Virus record (IMG/VR): IMGVR_UViG_3300000117_000022
Span: 20,577-56,838 of that record
From: a virus
Length of the DNA: 36,262 nucleotides
Direction: 5' to 3' (one strand)
The notes under the pieces were generated by a model, which was not told where the DNA came from, did no database searches, and saw nothing but the letters and a program-made list of their open reading frames with translations. The position numbers were made by a program, and so were the translations under genes. Below, piece after piece: positions 13,524-36,262 of this stretch (position 1 is the first letter of the stretch; each line of letters begins with the position of its first letter).

Positions 13524-13716
13524 GTAATTTCTCTATTAAGTCTGAAAGTAGATTTTTAATCTCTCCCATCTCTTCCTTTAATGTATTTATGTCCTCTGTC
13601 GTTTTCTTTTGCAACTCACGTCTCTTCTTTACTGCAAGATATCCATTATAATCTGTACTTACAATAGCAGAAGAATGTTCATCTCTTATAAGATTACTAT
13701 GTCCTTCTACTTTCAT
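13507..13716 (-). CDS. Small conserved coiled-coil protein (69 aa)
   Basis: The start at 13716 (MKVEGHSNLIRDEHSSAIVS) is chosen over an ATG 18 bases upstream because it overlaps the preceding TAA by one base, as at many junctions here, and because this family begins MKVEGH. The pattern MKVEGHxNLxRD...I.xTD..xY..Y is a small conserved protein beside the DUF4815 gene in T4-like marine phages. Residues 38-69 (LQKKTTEDINTLKEEMGEIK) are predicted to form a coiled coil. Function unknown; a structural or assembly role is likely from the context. Confidence 0.85.
   Translation of the reverse strand: MKVEGHSNLIRDEHSSAIVSTDYNGYLAVKKRRELQKKTTEDINTLKEEMGEIKNLLSDLIEKLHGKDS
13584..13591 (-). promoter_or_regulatory. 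Possible late promoter inside the 69-aa gene (CATAAATA)
   Basis: CATAAATACATTAAAGG on the minus strand, 60 bases upstream of the ATG at 13523. It lies in coding sequence, so chance is a fair alternative. Confidence 0.4.
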
Positions 13717-16700
13717 TATGCAAGTGCTAAACACCTAAGAGCAGATACCAATGGTACTACTGAAGTGTTTGTTCCTTGTCCAACTATTTTAACTGCAAAT
13801 GCACTGAACTCGGGTAAGTTCTCTGCAGTAAACTCATATTCTTTAAAGTTTCTTGCATCTCTTTCTGTAGTTATGTCGGGTGAACCATCTGTATTGAAGT
13901 ATCTCCAATCTAGTTCATCAAAAGGTGTTGAATCATCATTTGATAGCACTTTATACATAACCTTTAAATCTGTAGTTGGTGGTCTAAAGAAATCTGCAAT
14001 AACCTTAACGGATGATGCAGGAGTTTTTAGATTTACCTTTCTAGTACAATATATCATTGCATTATTGTCTGCATCACTTTCTGTAGATGATACATAGTCA
14101 CTTGCAATTGCTAGGTCACTAGAACTGTTGATTTGATTTAATCTGTTTCCAATAGCAATCACACCAATGGTTGATACATCTACAACTGGTGAAATGTTAT
14201 TATTGAACGACTGCATTTGTAATACAGTTGTAAATGATTTACCACCACTCATTTCGTTTGTTTCATTTATTGATGATGCAACCATACTTGGGAAACCTAA
14301 GAATGCATTATCATTCAAAGTGATAAAGTCATTATCAAGTCTCTTAGTATATGCAGTTCCGTTTATGTATGCTTCGGGTGAAGTTGCAGGAGTCAAGTTT
14401 ACTGATGAGACAATTCTTGTTCCTTCAACTTGTGTACTTGGAATCATTGTATGTAATGAATCAAAGTAGTAATCTCTTGATGAAGTTGCAACACTTCCAC
14501 CACCTAGTGTATTATTGTCTGCAGTATATCCTGCTTTTAAATCAAATGCTGATAAGTCGGGAATTACTGTAAATGAATCTATAGAAATATTTGCAATTGC
14601 AGTAAATGTTGAATTGATAGAATCTACTGGAATACCACCTAGTGTCTCTCCAATAGAATCAATAGCAATAGTTGCATCTGCAGTTCCACCATCAAAGTTT
14701 GTTATGGTTAATGAATCTGATGTAGTATAATTACTTCCAGTTCCACTAATAACACATGATGATATAGCATTATCTGTAACAACAACATCAACTGTACAAT
14801 CTACTCCACTTCCAGTAGTAGTAGTTGCAACATTAGTATAAGTTCCGTTTACAGGTGTTCCTGATACTACTGGTGTTCCAATAGTCAATACAGCACCACT
14901 CTTATCTCCAACTACACCTGCTACAGTCGTATTGGATGATGTGCTATACATTCCATGAAAATAGTTTATCACTCTTACATAGTTTTGTCCACTAAATGTT
15001 TCAATTGGATTATTCTGTAATGTATGCACTGGTAATGTGTCATTATCAAATTTAAGAAGAGGTGTCTTAGTAATATCAAAACGACATTTCTTAAGATTAA
15101 ATTTCAAGTCATCAGTTTGTTCTGCAGTCCATGTGGATGCATTCTGAGACATGAACAATGAACCAGCATATGGTTGTCCTGCAATTGTTTGTCCTGTTGC
15201 AAGGTCTGTTTCACCCATTCTTGAAATAAACACATTGTATTCATTTGAATTTGAGTATACAACAAAACACATCTCTTGGTTTTGTTTTAGATACACTGGT
15301 GAATCAAATGTAAATGTTGTTGCAACAGAACCATCTGTTGAAGTGTTAACTTGTGAAGGTGTCTTAGTTGCAATAGAGAATGGCATGACCAACTGGCCAG
15401 GATATCCGTTTACCATATTTCTGATTTCTACAGATACAGGTAGTGTTGCATCCTTTGTTTCAAAGAACACATCTATTGAAGATACAAACATACCACCGTT
15501 TGATTCTACCATGAATGATTGTGCAAGAGGGTCTCTCCATCTTGGTTCCATATCCTCCATGTCAAATCTCATCTCAAAATCTTCAAACCTTCTTCTTCTA
15601 CCAATACCTATAAATGGAGGTAATGGTGGTTCAATCGGCAATGGTGGAAGACTAACTGGAGGTAGTATTGGAGACGAAATAGGTGGGTCTATTATTACTG
15701 GTGGAACAATATCAATAGGTATAATAGGTGCAGTAGCATCAAACACTTCAGTATTCAACATCTCACCTCTTCTTGTTATTGTTCTTTCACCAGTTGTAGA
15801 ACCAGTTATAACTCTTGCATTTCTTGTTGATACAACTTCAGTTTGTGAAGATTGTAATAACCCTTGTGCTTGATATATTTCAGTTCCACTTGAAGGTGGA
15901 TTACTTAAGTTATAGAAACTTGAAGTTATTTTAACTTCTCTCATTCCTGTTGGGAATCTTTGTCTATCTGTATTAGGTAAATCAAAGTATGCACGAAGTC
16001 TTCCGTTTCCATCTGTTTTTAAGAATGATGTTGCTGTTGTTCCACCATCTTGTGAATATGTTGCACTAAATGGTCTAGTGTATTCATCCACTCTCATGTT
16101 GTCAAAGAACACATAGTGGTTTGTATTTGGTTTTAAGTTATCTGCATCAATCTCAATTGTTCTAGCACGCATGAATGGTATAAGTGTTACACTTACTACT
16201 CTATCGTTTCTTGTTTCTACAAAGTCTTCTACTACACTTGTTGTGACACCAGTTCTTGTTTGTGTTTCAACTGTTTCTGTAATTTCTCTTGTGATTTGTT
16301 GTCCAGCAATCCATTCACCACCTTGTGTTGGGTCTCCATTCCATGAGCCATTAGAAGTTGATTCGACTTCTGATGAAACTTGTGTAGGTTCTCCAACCCA
16401 TGTTGTCTGCCATGAGTTCCAAACTGTTCCAAGTGCATTGTCATTCAATGCTTGAATTGCATCAAAGTTTCCTTCTCTGTTAATTCTTACTTCGGGTAGT
16501 TGGTCTGTATCTTGCCAGACATCTGTGCCTGGCGTTAACTTAATATTTCCAATAAATGCAAATACATTGTATGGGTTTACATTGATTGTTCTAGATGCTT
16601 TATCTTGATTTACAAAAGATGATTCACTAAATGGTAGTGTTATCAAATCTCCAGTTTTAGTATAACTAGATGATGTTGCAGTATTTAAAGATATGTCAAA

Positions 16701-19700
16701 GAACTGTTGATATGATTTAGGTCTCATTGCACCTAGTTTAGTATCTATAGCAATATTGTAATCGGGATGGTTAACATCTCCAACTCTATGTCCTCTGAAG
16801 TTATCTACTAAGAAACCTGACTTAAATCTATCTAGTCCATCTGTATCTAGTATCTGTTTTGTTTGTGTATCTTTCTCTAATAGAGATAAAGAAGTAATTC
16901 TTTCTAAGTTTGTGACTCTGTTATTAATTCTTGCCACATCTTTCATTGTAAATCTTCTATGGTCTTGTGACCTAACTCTAATGTTAGAGAGATTTAAGGT
17001 ATATGGTGGAACATAAAGTTCAAATAATTCTATTGACTCATCAACTCCTTTTGGTTTAGCAGGAGTTAGACTTGGTGTTCCAACTGAAGTTTGAAAACTT
17101 CCTGATTTATGTAAGAATACTTTATCGTATCTTCCAACAAAGAATGAAATGTCTCCAACAAAACTTGAACCAGTGACTGGTGTGTCTGTTGCATTAGCAC
17201 CAGTTGAAGAAATACCTGTTCTACTTCCTTCAAAGTTTCTACCAGTAGTATAACCAAACGGTGCAAATTGAGCATCTGTTGATAAGTTTACTGGACTTGT
17301 TGGGTCTTGTGCATTATTACTACCGAATGTAGATGTACCAAGTATTTGACCACAAACTGGTCTGAAGTCTAGTGAATCTGAAAGTTCGAATGTTCCATCG
17401 GGTTCTAAACCACCCAAGTCAACTTTGTTTGGTGAGTAAACTGGAATATCTCTATAGTCTATTGATGCATATGATTCAACATCAAAGAAGTCTCCACTTC
17501 CTGATGGTGTAAAGTAATCGAAACAAATCAATATAGGATTTGAAGGTTTAGCAGAACCAGTCTTAAGTGTAATTTTTCCTAAGTCATAGAAACCATCTCT
17601 CTGACCATTGTCAAAGAAATATCTAGATGTTATGTTTGATGACCCTTGAGATACATTACTTAATGTTGCAACTGCTTTAGATGTTTGACCAACAACTGTT
17701 TCTGCATCTACAAATGTTCCTGATACATAATAGAAGTATGTTGTTCCACCTGTTGTTATTATTATACCATGTGCATTAGATGTTTGTCCAATAAATTTTT
17801 CATAGTTTACAAATGTCCCACTAGACACTGTAAATGTTGCACTAGGTGGTAGAGGTGTTGTTCCTCCAACTCCCTCATAGATTCCTCTGATTTTAAATGT
17901 ATCTGCAACACCTAACGATATTTCTCTATCGTCATATGCAGTACCATATTTTCCACCAGCACTTCTTGCAGAACCAACTTTAAGTAGTCTTGCAGGTCTT
18001 ATTGTTTTGTCTCTGTTAACTGGGTCGGTAATTGTGATAGTAGAAGTGACTCTAAGAACTGCACCATTATCAGCAGAATCAAATCCTGTCAATGTTAATG
18101 TCTGACCTGAACCTGAAGATTGTGGTGAACCACCAAAGTCTTCTACATTTAGAAGGTCTCCTTGTGCATAACCTGTTGCAGCTTCTATAACTGCAATTGT
18201 AAAGTTATCTGTATTCTTTGCACCGAATACTCCATTTGAACCAGTTGATAATTGGACTTCGTTAGATGCAACGGTTACAACTTCTTGTCTTCTTACTTGA
18301 ATAGACTCTGCAGTATGTGTTGAAATCCAATCTCTTGGCCATGATGATATTGCAGCAGTTTGGTCTTGGTCAAAGATTCTAACTCTTCGTCTTGTTGCAT
18401 TTCCACTAAATGTGGTCGTACCATTACCTGTTAATGTTAAACTTAAATCATTGGTGACAGATGCAACAACATTTTCATTACCTGCTTGGTCAACAATGAT
18501 ATCACCTTCTTTTAATTCAGTCAAGTACTTAGTTCCAAAACCAGTCACTGCAGTACTACCTGAAGACATAGTTAAAGAACCTGTTAGTGTTCTATCTGAA
18601 TCTGCAACTAGGTCTGCAGTAAATATTTCTCTGTTTGTGTTCTTAGCAGTTTGTGTAATTGACCTTGCACGGTCAACATTGTAAGACCTAACTGCAGTCA
18701 CTGTTGTTGTACCTGAAGTGACACCTTCTGTTGTAATTGAATTTCCAATTGCAAATGTCCCTACAACATCATGTACAAACAATTCAGCACCATCCGTATG
18801 TGATACGATTGCAACTGCACCACTGTTAGAGACAACTCTATCTCCTGTAGTAAATGTTCCACTTAGTGTACCACTAATTCTAGTGAACATCTTAATATCA
18901 AACATATACAAGTTAAATACAGATGCATTTGTGTACACATCACTTGAATCTGAACCAGTGTCCAAATCAATGTTTCTTACTCTTGCAGTTCCAATTTGGA
19001 ATGTTGTTGGTTTTGTACCTGCTGAAGATATAGATGTATTCCATAATTCACATGGTGCAAATGGAGACATTGCATCGTCTCCTGCTTCATTACCAAACTC
19101 GGGTAATGAATGGATGTTCTTAACTTTTAATTTATTTCCTAATCTAATAGGTGTATTTGCATTATCTAAAGAAACTGTAGTTCTTGCTTTTGAGAAAGGT
19201 ATTGTTGTAGTTCCAACTTTATCAATCTCATAACCTTTAACATATGCTTTGCCTGGCGATACTTGCATTACAAATTGACTCTCATCTCCACCTTGGGCAG
19301 ATGCATAGAAACCTCTATTGGTACTATCGTCTAAATGTTCTCTTAAACTATGTGTAAATTGGTTTACAACAAAATCACCGTTTGCATCAAATGTTCGTCT
19401 AGCAAGTGTGTTCTCTATTTCATTGTACATTGGTCTATTGACTTCTAATTCAATAATACCATTATTAACTCTCATTGTTTCAACAAAGTCTGAGTCATCA
19501 GTAGTAGTAAGTGCATACTTACTTAATGTTAATGCAATTGATAATCTATCAGCACCTGGCGCATTTTCATTAGTAGTTCCTGTTGCATTATCATTCAACG
19601 AAGAATCTGTTGCTGAATCAACTGAAGATTCAACAATAGTTAATCCAACTCTATACGAAGGTGTTCCACTATACTTTTCTAGTATTAACTCTTGTGCAGG

Positions 19701-20321
19701 AACCTTAATAAAGAATCCTCTTATAAAGATAACACCTTCTGATATATTTGCAATAGATGCTAATCCGTTAACACTATTGATTGTTGTTTCTGTTCCAACT
19801 GTGAACTCATTATAGTTGGTTGTATTAAGTGCAACAACACCATCTCCATCTACGGTCACTTCTTGCAACTCTTCTGCAGAACTGAATGTAAATGAGTTTG
19901 ATGTATCTGTTCCTTGTGATTGGTATTTAACAAATAGTGTTAAAGAATCATCTGTAGTTTCTGCAGATGAAGTTATAACCTTTGCAACAACTCCTGTTGT
20001 TTTACCTTTAAGAAACTTTCCATGGAATGATTGTCTGTAAGTTTCTACATTTGTATCACCTAGTGCATTTGGATTTGCAGAATTAACTTTAACATAGTAT
20101 AGTTCCATGTTAACATCAGTCTGAGCTCCTTGAACAATAGAACCCTCTTTAAACATATGACCACCAAATCTTTCAATCTGATTTTGTAGTATAGATTGTG
20201 ATTGGATTAATTCTCTAGATTGTAGAGCCCTACCTGCACGATATAATACTTTGTGAAAATTTTTATCTTCACTATAATCATCGTAATATGGGGATACATT
20301 TAAATCAGTTTTTTCAGCCAT
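13716..20321 (-). CDS. Giant DUF4815-type virion structural protein (2201 aa)
   Basis: The N-terminus (DLNVSPYYDDYSEDKNFHKV, then RALQSRELIQSQSILQNQIE) is the signature of the DUF4815 structural proteins of T4-like marine phages. Residues about 510-560 and 890-950 contain the G-x-F-x-x-G-[DE]-x-[VI] module also found in gp53 and the 1174-residue protein. Residues about 1590-1625 are proline-rich (SPILPPVSLPPLPIEPPLPP) and are followed by a basic/acidic stretch (GRRRRFEDFEMRFDMEDMEP), which looks like a hinge. DPLAQSFMVESNGG follows, a recurrent motif of this family. Residues about 1800-1880 hold a NGTYTNVA...ISSCVISG module shared with gp8. It is probably a large baseplate or fibre-anchoring protein. 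TAGGAAA precedes the ATG by 5 bases. Confidence 0.9.
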   Translation of the reverse strand: MAEKTDLNVSPYYDDYSEDKNFHKVLYRAGRALQSRELIQSQSILQNQIERFGGHMFKEGSIVQGAQTDVNMELYYVKVNSANPNALGDTNVETYRQSFHGKFLKGKTTGVVAKVITSSAETTDDSLTLFVKYQSQGTDTSNSFTFSSAEELQEVTVDGDGVVALNTTNYNEFTVGTETTINSVNGLASIANISEGVIFIRGFFIKVPAQELILEKYSGTPSYRVGLTIVESSVDSATDSSLNDNATGTTNENAPGADRLSIALTLSKYALTTTDDSDFVETMRVNNGIIELEVNRPMYNEIENTLARRTFDANGDFVVNQFTHSLREHLDDSTNRGFYASAQGGDESQFVMQVSPGKAYVKGYEIDKVGTTTIPFSKARTTVSLDNANTPIRLGNKLKVKNIHSLPEFGNEAGDDAMSPFAPCELWNTSISSAGTKPTTFQIGTARVRNIDLDTGSDSSDVYTNASVFNLYMFDIKMFTRISGTLSGTFTTGDRVVSNSGAVAIVSHTDGAELFVHDVVGTFAIGNSITTEGVTSGTTTVTAVRSYNVDRARSITQTAKNTNREIFTADLVADSDRTLTGSLTMSSGSTAVTGFGTKYLTELKEGDIIVDQAGNENVVASVTNDLSLTLTGNGTTTFSGNATRRRVRIFDQDQTAAISSWPRDWISTHTAESIQVRRQEVVTVASNEVQLSTGSNGVFGAKNTDNFTIAVIEAATGYAQGDLLNVEDFGGSPQSSGSGQTLTLTGFDSADNGAVLRVTSTITITDPVNRDKTIRPARLLKVGSARSAGGKYGTAYDDREISLGVADTFKIRGIYEGVGGTTPLPPSATFTVSSGTFVNYEKFIGQTSNAHGIIITTGGTTYFYYVSGTFVDAETVVGQTSKAVATLSNVSQGSSNITSRYFFDNGQRDGFYDLGKITLKTGSAKPSNPILICFDYFTPSGSGDFFDVESYASIDYRDIPVYSPNKVDLGGLEPDGTFELSDSLDFRPVCGQILGTSTFGSNNAQDPTSPVNLSTDAQFAPFGYTTGRNFEGSRTGISSTGANATDTPVTGSSFVGDISFFVGRYDKVFLHKSGSFQTSVGTPSLTPAKPKGVDESIELFELYVPPYTLNLSNIRVRSQDHRRFTMKDVARINNRVTNLERITSLSLLEKDTQTKQILDTDGLDRFKSGFLVDNFRGHRVGDVNHPDYNIAIDTKLGAMRPKSYQQFFDISLNTATSSSYTKTGDLITLPFSESSFVNQDKASRTINVNPYNVFAFIGNIKLTPGTDVWQDTDQLPEVRINREGNFDAIQALNDNALGTVWNSWQTTWVGEPTQVSSEVESTSNGSWNGDPTQGGEWIAGQQITREITETVETQTRTGVTTSVVEDFVETRNDRVVSVTLIPFMRARTIEIDADNLKPNTNHYVFFDNMRVDEYTRPFSATYSQDGGTTATSFLKTDGNGRLRAYFDLPNTDRQRFPTGMREVKITSSFYNLSNPPSSGTEIYQAQGLLQSSQTEVVSTRNARVITGSTTGERTITRRGEMLNTEVFDATAPIIPIDIVPPVIIDPPISSPILPPVSLPPLPIEPPLPPFIGIGRRRRFEDFEMRFDMEDMEPRWRDPLAQSFMVESNGGMFVSSIDVFFETKDATLPVSVEIRNMVNGYPGQLVMPFSIATKTPSQVNTSTDGSVATTFTFDSPVYLKQNQEMCFVVYSNSNEYNVFISRMGETDLATGQTIAGQPYAGSLFMSQNASTWTAEQTDDLKFNLKKCRFDITKTPLLKFDNDTLPVHTLQNNPIETFSGQNYVRVINYFHGMYSTSSNTTVAGVVGDKSGAVLTIGTPVVSGTPVNGTYTNVATTTTGSGVDCTVDVVVTDNAISSCVISGTGSNYTTSDSLTITNFDGGTADATIAIDSIGETLGGIPVDSINSTFTAIANISIDSFTVIPDLSAFDLKAGYTADNNTLGGGSVATSSRDYYFDSLHTMIPSTQVEGTRIVSSVNLTPATSPEAYINGTAYTKRLDNDFITLNDNAFLGFPSMVASSINETNEMSGGKSFTTVLQMQSFNNNISPVVDVSTIGVIAIGNRLNQINSSSDLAIASDYVSSTESDADNNAMIYCTRKVNLKTPASSVKVIADFFRPPTTDLKVMYKVLSNDDSTPFDELDWRYFNTDGSPDITTERDARNFKEYEFTAENLPEFSAFAVKIVGQGTNTSVVPLVSALRCLALA

Positions 20322-20373: not shown

Positions 20374-21834
20374 TTACATTTCAATAATTAATTTAATATC
20401 TTCTATTTGGTCTGCAGCTCTTGTCACTGCACCTCTATTCTCAACATACATCACTTGACCTGAGTATTTTTCAACTTCAGGGAATGAAGAATCAACTGCT
20501 GAGATAGTTCCTATTGTGGTACCACCAACATATACAGTATTTGAACTGACAAAGTTTACATATCCACCCTCACTATTTGCTTGAGGAATATGGGATACGA
20601 CATTACCAGTAATTGAGATAACTCTTGATACTGCAACTCCACTTCCATCTGAGTTTGCATTTAAAATAATGTCATCAACACTAAGACCAACAACACTTGA
20701 AAGTGTCATCTTGTTGTATGCAGCCAATGTTGGAGATGTTGATACAGTTGTTGTACCAGCATTGAATGGGTCTTGTAAAAGTCCGATTCTTCTGAAATCA
20801 TTGTCTGTTGGGAAATCGCCTGAACCTTCACCGAACTCTAATCTAGAGTTAACGATTACATAGTTTCCACCAAGTTCTTGGATTGGGTCTGCACCGTGTC
20901 CGATTAATGGTGATATAATAGGTTTTGCAACCCCACCACTACCTGAACCAATACCTGATATATTTGCAATATCAATTGATGCACGTTTATATCCAGTTCC
21001 TGCAGCAGTTATGTTTACATATGAAATTGCACTCGAAGCTACAACCACTGTACATACACCACCTGAACCATCTCCGTCTATTGCAACTGAAGTATATGTT
21101 CCATCTGTATAACCTGAACCACCTGCTGTCACTACTACATGGTGAACTCCTCCGTCCACTGCAGAGTTCTCAACATCCCATTGTGATGTTCCGTCATCAG
21201 AAGCAGCAGTTCCTAATGCACCCGAAGTACCATCAATTTCTGTTTGAGCACCAATTGTTTTAACTGGTATAAAGTCGTTTGTTACAAATTTGATTGTTTC
21301 TGAAGCAGAAACAGTATACATATATTTCCAAATATAACCACGTCCTGTAGCTGCATCTGTATCTGAAGTCTCTACTAATGCAGTTGCAGAAGTTCCAGTT
21401 GGTTGAACTGTTGAGTTAACAACAACACCTGAAGAATTTCTTCCAGTTCTGATACACTTGTATACATGATACTCGTCTGTTATTACAAAAAATCTTGAAT
21501 CGTAAAGATTGTTTGATGATGTTGCAGGAGAAGTATTACTTGCACTATAGTCATGTGCATACTCATCATACTTAGTACTTCCTGTTATGTCATAATCATA
21601 TCTTGTTAACCCGTGAGATACATCTGAAGAACCAACTTTCTTCAATGCTAACATATCAGAATATGAATCTATTTCTTCTCCAACTGCATTTGCAGGTGAA
21701 GGTGGGGATGTGTCATCTGCCCATGGGTATGGACGACCTATGAATATATATGATGAAGAGGCACTCTCTCCAAAGTCTTCTTTGAATTGTTTAGCATTAT
21801 GTATTCTAAACTTTTCGGTAATAATTGCTGCCAT
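20374..21834 (-). CDS. gp8: Baseplate wedge protein gp8
   Basis: Several points match T4 gp8 in order. The start AIITEKFR corresponds to T4 AIVTSKFR, SYIFIGRPYPW to ITFGRSEPW, and VYKCIRTG to VYRCLDVP. GYIWKYMYTVSASETIKFVT corresponds to GYVWEYLFEIPPDVSINRCT, and the end GQVMYVENRGAVTRAADQIE to GEMIYMENRPPIIMAMDQTE. At 486 residues it is longer than T4 gp8 (about 334). The extra length includes an inserted GSGYTDGTYTSVAIDGDGSG module at about residues 228-295. gp8 is part of the baseplate wedge and binds gp7 and gp10 in T4. The ribosome site TAGGAG is 8 bases before the ATG, and an exact TATAAATA lies 28 bases upstream. Confidence 0.92.
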   Translation of the reverse strand: MAAIITEKFRIHNAKQFKEDFGESASSSYIFIGRPYPWADDTSPPSPANAVGEEIDSYSDMLALKKVGSSDVSHGLTRYDYDITGSTKYDEYAHDYSASNTSPATSSNNLYDSRFFVITDEYHVYKCIRTGRNSSGVVVNSTVQPTGTSATALVETSDTDAATGRGYIWKYMYTVSASETIKFVTNDFIPVKTIGAQTEIDGTSGALGTAASDDGTSQWDVENSAVDGGVHHVVVTAGGSGYTDGTYTSVAIDGDGSGGVCTVVVASSAISYVNITAAGTGYKRASIDIANISGIGSGSGGVAKPIISPLIGHGADPIQELGGNYVIVNSRLEFGEGSGDFPTDNDFRRIGLLQDPFNAGTTTVSTSPTLAAYNKMTLSSVVGLSVDDIILNANSDGSGVAVSRVISITGNVVSHIPQANSEGGYVNFVSSNTVYVGGTTIGTISAVDSSFPEVEKYSGQVMYVENRGAVTRAADQIEDIKLIIEM

Positions 21835-35405: not shown

Positions 35406-36104
35406 ATGGGATTACCAATCCAAACAACACCCACATATAGGTGTGTGTTGCCAAGTAGTGGAAGGGAAGTTAAGTACAGACCCTTCTTAGTTAAAGAACA
35501 AAAGATTCTTTCAATTGCAAAAGAGAGTGAAGACCAAAAACAAATCTTCAATGCAATTAAAGACCTTATAGAAAGTGTTACGTTTGGTGAAGTGTTAGCA
35601 GATAACCTTGCAGTAATGGATTTAGAATATCTATTTCTCAAGACTCGTTCTGCATCAGTTGGTGAAACAACTACAGTAAACACATCTTGTAGTGATACAG
35701 ATTGTGGAGGAAGTGCTACACTTAAAATCAATCTAGATGAGATTGAACCTAAAGGTGAATCAGCAGACAACAAAGTTATGATAAATGATAATGTTGGTGT
35801 CACACTTAGACCACCTATTGTTAAAAACATAAAGAGTTTAGGAAGTGGTGAAGATGCAGACGTGGTAGAAATTCTAACAGCATGTATTGATTCGATATTT
35901 GATGAAGAGAATGTCTACATGGCAGACGAGACATCAGATAAAGATTTATTAGAGTTTGTTGAGAGTTTGACATTTGGACAACTAGAACAACTTAGTATTT
36001 GGTTTGAGTCTCTACCAAAACTAACTTACACAACAAGTGGAGCTTGTGAAGTTTGTGGTAAAGAGACTACGAGAACACTAGAGGGATTACAGAGTTTTTT
36101 TTAA
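35406..36104 (+). CDS. gp26: Baseplate hub protein gp26 with a 3' slippery run
   Basis: The start (TPTYRCVLPSSGREVKYRPF with LVKEQKILSIAKESEDQKQI) and the following AIKDLIESV are the signature of the T4 gp26 baseplate-protein family (PF12322). There are two Cys pairs, SCSDTDCG and GACEVCGK, which may form a zinc-binding site. At 232 residues it is slightly longer than T4 gp26 (208). GGAG lies 8 bases before the ATG. The gene ends QSFF-stop inside a run of eight T (36095-36102), and the -1 frame continues as a long open sequence. In T4, gp26 is followed by gp51, and these are near the tape-measure gene. This suggests a gp26/gp26-extended pair made by frameshifting. Confidence 0.92.
   Translation: MGLPIQTTPTYRCVLPSSGREVKYRPFLVKEQKILSIAKESEDQKQIFNAIKDLIESVTFGEVLADNLAVMDLEYLFLKTRSASVGETTTVNTSCSDTDCGGSATLKINLDEIEPKGESADNKVMINDNVGVTLRPPIVKNIKSLGSGEDADVVEILTACIDSIFDEENVYMADETSDKDLLEFVESLTFGQLEQLSIWFESLPKLTYTTSGACEVCGKETTRTLEGLQSFF
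36095..36102 (+). promoter_or_regulatory. Candidate -1 ribosomal slip site (T TTT TTT A)
   Basis: Eight T residues bridge the last two Phe codons and the TAA of gp26. In frame it reads AG-T-TTT-TTT-TAA, which is the X-XXY-YYZ heptamer T-TTT-TTT. The only downstream helper is a weak 6-bp hairpin at 36124-36145, about 21 bases away. Confidence 0.6.
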
Positions 36105-36262
36105 TAGCTCTTTCTCATGAGTCCGTGTTTAATTATTATAACACGAACTTTCAGTTAATGCAACACCACAAGTATTCATTAACAGAACTCGAAAACATGA
36201 TGCCTTGGGAAAGAGAAGTATATGTCAAACTCCTTCTTAATTGGTTAGAGGAAGAAAAGGAA
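36101..36262 (+). CDS. -1 frame continuation of gp26 (gp51-like or T-type extension), partial
   Basis: In the -1 frame from the slip site, 54 codons are open to the window edge. They read LIALSHESVFNYYNTNFQLM, QHHKYSLTELENMMPWEREV, YVKLLLNWLEEEKE. The frame has no start codon before the slip site back to the stop at 36059, and after it only a GTG at 36125 and an ATG at 36158, residue 20 of this stretch. The sequence is aromatic and helical with a D/E-rich tail and looks conserved. An ATG at 36117 is in the wrong frame and stops after 13 codons. Position suggests a gp51 equivalent or an extended gp26. Confidence 0.65.
36124..36145 (+). other. Weak hairpin downstream of the slip site
   Basis: CGTGTT pairs with AACACG (6 bp) around a 10-base loop. 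It is farther from the slip site than usual frameshift stimulators, so its involvement is doubtful. Confidence 0.3.

Follow-up and report, generated by a model that had tools for sequence, protein, structure and literature searches.

A conserved slippery heptamer and downstream RNA structure point to −1 frameshifting between gp26 and gp51 in an uncultured marine T4-like phage

The window, by which we mean the whole 36,262-nucleotide stretch that was analysed, covers positions 20577–56838 of a 63,193-bp virus record and carries T4-like tail genes. At its end lies gp26 (35406–36104, plus strand), whose 0-frame product of 232 aa matches PF12322 (T4_baseplate) in Pfam with an E-value of 4.3e-53 and phrog_150 (baseplate hub) in PHROG with an E-value of 5.4e-58. 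When the AlphaFold2 model of this protein (mean pLDDT 84.5) was compared with BFVD, it hit a model labelled 'baseplate hub assembly chaperone' (E 2.8e-19); the PDB, a library that may contain no relevant tail assembly chaperone (TAC), gave no match at E ≤ 0.001. Further downstream in the parent record, one ORF of 128 aa with hydrophobic segments (L086:1909–2295), for which PHROG gave no match at E 0.01, separates the chaperone from a 635-aa tape-measure ORF (L086:2305–4212; phrog_305, E 1.3e-9). The minus strand of the window also carries an ORF of 2201 aa (13716–20321) with a strong match to phrog_358, a family annotated as function unknown.

gp26 terminates on a run of eight T residues (36095–36102), as the initial annotation had pointed out; its 3′ end reads ...CAG AGT TTT TTT TAA, with the stop codon ending at 36104. 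The run contains the slippery heptamer U UUU UUU (36095–36101, plus strand; 0-frame nnU UUU UUU), which directly adjoins the UAA stop (36102–36104). The window has no other 8-T run, although chance would predict 6.3, and the slip run therefore does not come from T-runs being generally abundant. Starting at 36101, the −1 frame has no stop over the 54 codons that remain in the window, in agreement with the minimum length first proposed, and the parent record extends it to a stop at L086:1860, about 60 codons on, with one N shortly before the stop; near-identical loci likewise have a −1 extension of about 60 codons. The extension had been described as a conserved-looking helical sequence, and conserved it is, but rather than a nameless stretch it is a gp51 domain (TAC-C), matching phrog_634 (gp51, 'baseplate hub assembly catalyst'; E 4e-25) from its first residues. 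The statement that it holds no ATG before residue 20 also stands (36158), with the small correction that a GTG lies in frame at residue 9 (36125).

We compared T count and frame at the gp26 loci of relatives. In a first pass across relatives of 35–100% identity, the T-run, the −1 extension and the frame relation between them were present in 80/80. In a larger set of 263 readable loci, obtained from further scans and isolate genomes (e.g. S-PM2, P-HM2 and Melnitz), an in-frame heptamer U UUU UUN occurs 1–4 codons ahead of the gp26 stop at 262 loci, or in 60 of 61 clusters when grouped at 60% identity, and the −1 frame extends for 45 codons or more wherever the locus is uncut. Homopolymers are error-prone and the extension of the parent record holds that one N, which might raise suspicion of a sequencing or assembly error or of a pseudogene in decay. 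However, near-identical contigs from three other metagenomes also have eight T residues, and the frame relation is the same at 262/263 loci, the three named isolates included. The relatives already refute this reading, to which we assign practically no probability.

The heptamer is also constrained at the codon level. In all 60 clusters (<60% identity) the P-site codon is TTT and the codon preceding it is NNT, a combination with a probability of ~10^-24.5 from each gene's own codon usage, relatedness aside; because the loci are interrelated, this and the p-values below are approximate and their significance is inflated. The run itself is T6 only in 41/60 clusters (U UUU UUC or U UUU UUA) and T8 in 13/60. 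The sole locus of the 263 that is devoid of the heptamer is that of Vibrio phage K445 (L092:3223), in which a −1-frame ATG overlaps the gp26 stop (TAATG). Phages nt-1, V07, D486, PhiW-14 and Ps15 have both the heptamer and a −1-frame ATG overlapping the gp26 stop, possibly an intermediate arrangement between frameshifting and re-initiation.

Most public records annotate gp51 as its own CDS. In those of P-HM2, Melnitz, Sf-CH8, Syn19, S-PM2, DLP6 and S-CAM7 this CDS starts at an internal ATG and is often truncated, and none of the examined regions of these seven records joins gp51 to gp26. Such annotation, together with the start codons that overlap the gp26 stop in nt-1, D486, PhiW-14, Ps15 and K445, would fit a separate gp51 gene whose translation begins through re-initiation or at an internal start codon (here GTG 36125 or ATG 36158), with the T-run incidental. 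Against this, coding constraint starts right at the slip: over the stretch from the slip to the usual first ATG, dN/dS is 0.19 in the −1 frame versus 1.2–1.3 in the other frames, and the −1 frame evolves under purifying selection there. The first ATG falls at residue 16 or later in 37/60 clusters, the heptamer is kept beyond the expectation from codon usage, and T4 gp51 has a gp26-like N-domain fused in frame. A separate gp51 is in our view very unlikely here. The programmed −1 frameshift that the initial annotation proposed, joining gp26 to a C-terminal extension, is very probably correct, with the heptamer at 262/263 loci and the −1-frame dN/dS of 0.19 both arguing for it.

T4 itself provides an informative comparison. 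Both its gp26 and its gp51 appear as hub assembly chaperones in PMC3004832, and gp51 is absent from the final particle. T4 gp51 is encoded by a separate gene (249 aa) and is colinear over nearly its full length with the predicted gp26::gp51 fusion, across the slip junction (BLASTP E 2e-11); this alignment through the junction makes the fusion the long chaperone, with gp26 as its short counterpart. The proteins are homologous, and T4 gp51 is the counterpart of the whole fusion, whereas in T4 the short and long forms come from two separate, divergently oriented genes without a slip site or excess structure. No slippery heptamer was found at the homologous place in gp51 of T4 and seven other T4-type phages. 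In a tree built by a quick method with a midpoint root, T4-type gp26 forms one group and T4-type gp51 another, both next to the frameshifting genes. Cronobacter phage LPCS28 and Vibrio phage nt-1, both classed in T4's own family, the Straboviridae, have a U UUU UUC heptamer and a −1 extension, and the split gene pair is therefore not Straboviridae-wide.

In E. coli constructs U_UUU_UUU and U_UUU_UUA shift less than A_AAA_AAG (PMC5009743), and a stimulator is therefore to be expected. One candidate is an SD-like GAGGG (36081–36085, plus strand) 9 nt upstream of the heptamer; GAGGG is not present in every cluster, and at its Glu codon GAG is used over GAA in 28/44 clusters against 12.9 ± 2.9 expected. 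A second candidate, absent from the account given in the initial annotation, is RNA structure on the 3′ side. After a 6-nt spacer (36102–36107), the 5′ arm CUCUUUCUCA (36108–36117) pairs at 10/10 positions with the 3′ arm UGGGAAAGAG (36206–36215), compared with 7.1/10 under a synonymous null, forming a helix that closes an 88-nt loop and has a base-pair probability of 0.83–0.94 when folded in 161 nt. Within the loop, the MFE fold contains a local hairpin, CGUGUU...AACACG (36124–36145). Relatives have similar hairpins in shifted registers (by 2 between the window and locus L048), and we rejected the inner hairpin as a column-by-column homologous element. An Rfam scan of 35900–36262 returned nothing at the gathering threshold.

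Several lines of evidence support structure after the heptamer in the frameshifting loci taken as a set. Relative to dinucleotide shuffles the RNA after the heptamer has a mean z of −1.6 to −2.8, against −0.1 for a control within gp26, and relative to the same protein with resampled synonymous codons the 60 clusters give z −1.56 for 50 nt and −2.59 for 110 nt (p 1.3e-19). The z profile peaks at about −1.5 at the heptamer over a background of about −0.4. In eight T4-type gp51 genes, by contrast, z is mostly near 0, with one at −2.2, and the frameshifting clusters differ from them over 110 nt (Mann-Whitney p 5.7e-5). For covariation we used 57 relatives picked by A-site codon rather than by pairing. 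In these, 86.7% of helix cells are paired versus at most 60.4% when the helix is slid, double changes number 29 versus 13.0 ± 2.6 in shuffles, and the covariation score is 0.144 versus 0.095 ± 0.009 (0/500 shuffles); a further measure, pairs with change on both sides, did not exceed the shuffles in this set (3 vs 2.9). The compensatory changes fall where third codon positions oppose third codon positions.

The type of structure varies between clades. The long-range helix is absent from many clusters; other clades, chiefly those with U UUU UUC, have a local hairpin, and some have no detectable structure. Because the types differ between clades, RNAalifold with fixed columns over all clusters gives a weak consensus. 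By A-site codon, the helix occurs in 22/34 UUU/UUA/UUG clusters versus 2/26 UUC clusters; we rejected the idea that structure type follows the A-site codon, as the comparison is confounded by phylogeny with too few independent pairs. From its position, its conservation and its absence in split-gene phages, the helix looks like the trigger of the slip. We consider it likely that a conserved, clade-specific RNA stimulator drives the frameshifting of T4-like tail chaperones. In some clades this would be a helix spanning ~90 nt in which third positions face third positions and can covary with the protein unaltered, and in others a local hairpin; phages with split gp26 and gp51 would lack the slip site and the stimulator together.

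The spacing of the structure also bears on whether RNA polymerase, rather than the ribosome, might slip on T8, with standard translation then reading through transcripts of altered U count. The window and 13/60 clusters do have T8, but the T6 of the 41 clusters is short for polymerase and canonical for ribosomes, and the structure starts at ribosomal spacing; transcriptional slippage seems even less probable than a separately translated gp51.

We infer ribosomal slippage from features that were read from sequence, and the explanation that we propose, which taken as a whole we hold with high confidence, is as follows. Most ribosomes on gp26 would halt at UAA and release the short chaperone, TAC-N, of 232 aa. 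Some would slip by −1 on U UUU UUU, where tRNA-Phe in the P and A sites could both re-pair, and these would bypass UAA and yield gp26::gp51, TAC-NC, of ~292 aa. The slip would be aided by RNA structure 6 nt downstream, here the 10-bp helix closing the 88-nt loop, and perhaps also by the SD-like GAGGG 9 nt upstream. By analogy with lambda gpG/gpGT, TAC-N would coat the tape-measure protein while the C-domain of TAC-NC would recruit tail-tube subunits. The gp26 locus is thus very probably a TAC-N/TAC-NC short/long pair produced by −1 ribosomal frameshifting.

This −1 frameshift chaperone device is found in lambda, as G/GT, and in many other phages. The present locus resembles gpG/gpGT in that the slip comes shortly before the short chaperone gene ends and the tape-measure gene (phrog_305) lies downstream, which bears out the suggested link to the general chaperone scheme. 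It differs in its slip sequence, U UUU UUU here and GGGAAAG in lambda, and in its evident downstream stimulator; neither sequence nor PDB-fold comparison showed gp26 to resemble a lambda-type TAC. Vladimirov and colleagues are said to have found frameshifting conserved in several T4-like groups, with T4 using genes 26 and 51, and our tests agree independently with that account. A 2016 review still stated the phage TAC frameshift rule as holding 'except T4' (PMC5009743), and the initial annotation similarly held that T4-like phages are not usually cited for the device. That view is out of date: the TAC genes of T4-like phages have been identified (Vladimirov, Gautam & Davidson, Virology 2022, as cited in PMC10885494 and PMC12846349), and poly-T sequences are known −1 signals in T4-like TAC-N genes (PMC12846349, 2025). 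As far as the citing papers describe them, those TACs share with this locus the gp26/gp51 gene families, the kind of poly-T −1 signal and the short/long logic; the present locus adds an uncultured marine member. The TACs of Vandenendeviridae and Andersonviridae likewise have a conserved poly-T (GTTTTT) −1 site and an uninterrupted −1 frame, but they belong to other phage families and PMC12846349 mentions no RNA structure. Text searches for gp26/gp51 frameshifting returned only unrelated phages. T4-like TAC frameshifting is in kind already known, and what we did not find described is the RNA stimulator, in a comparison that covered Vladimirov et al. 2022 through the papers citing it.

The set of heptamers and structures, for which the split genes of T4-type phages serve as a natural control, would make it possible to test what the stimulator does and at what short:long ratio the two forms are made. 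Frameshifting would explain why 'gp51' is annotated as a headless fragment in marine and cyanophage T4-like viruses, and most of these viruses would fall into the general short/long tail-chaperone scheme.
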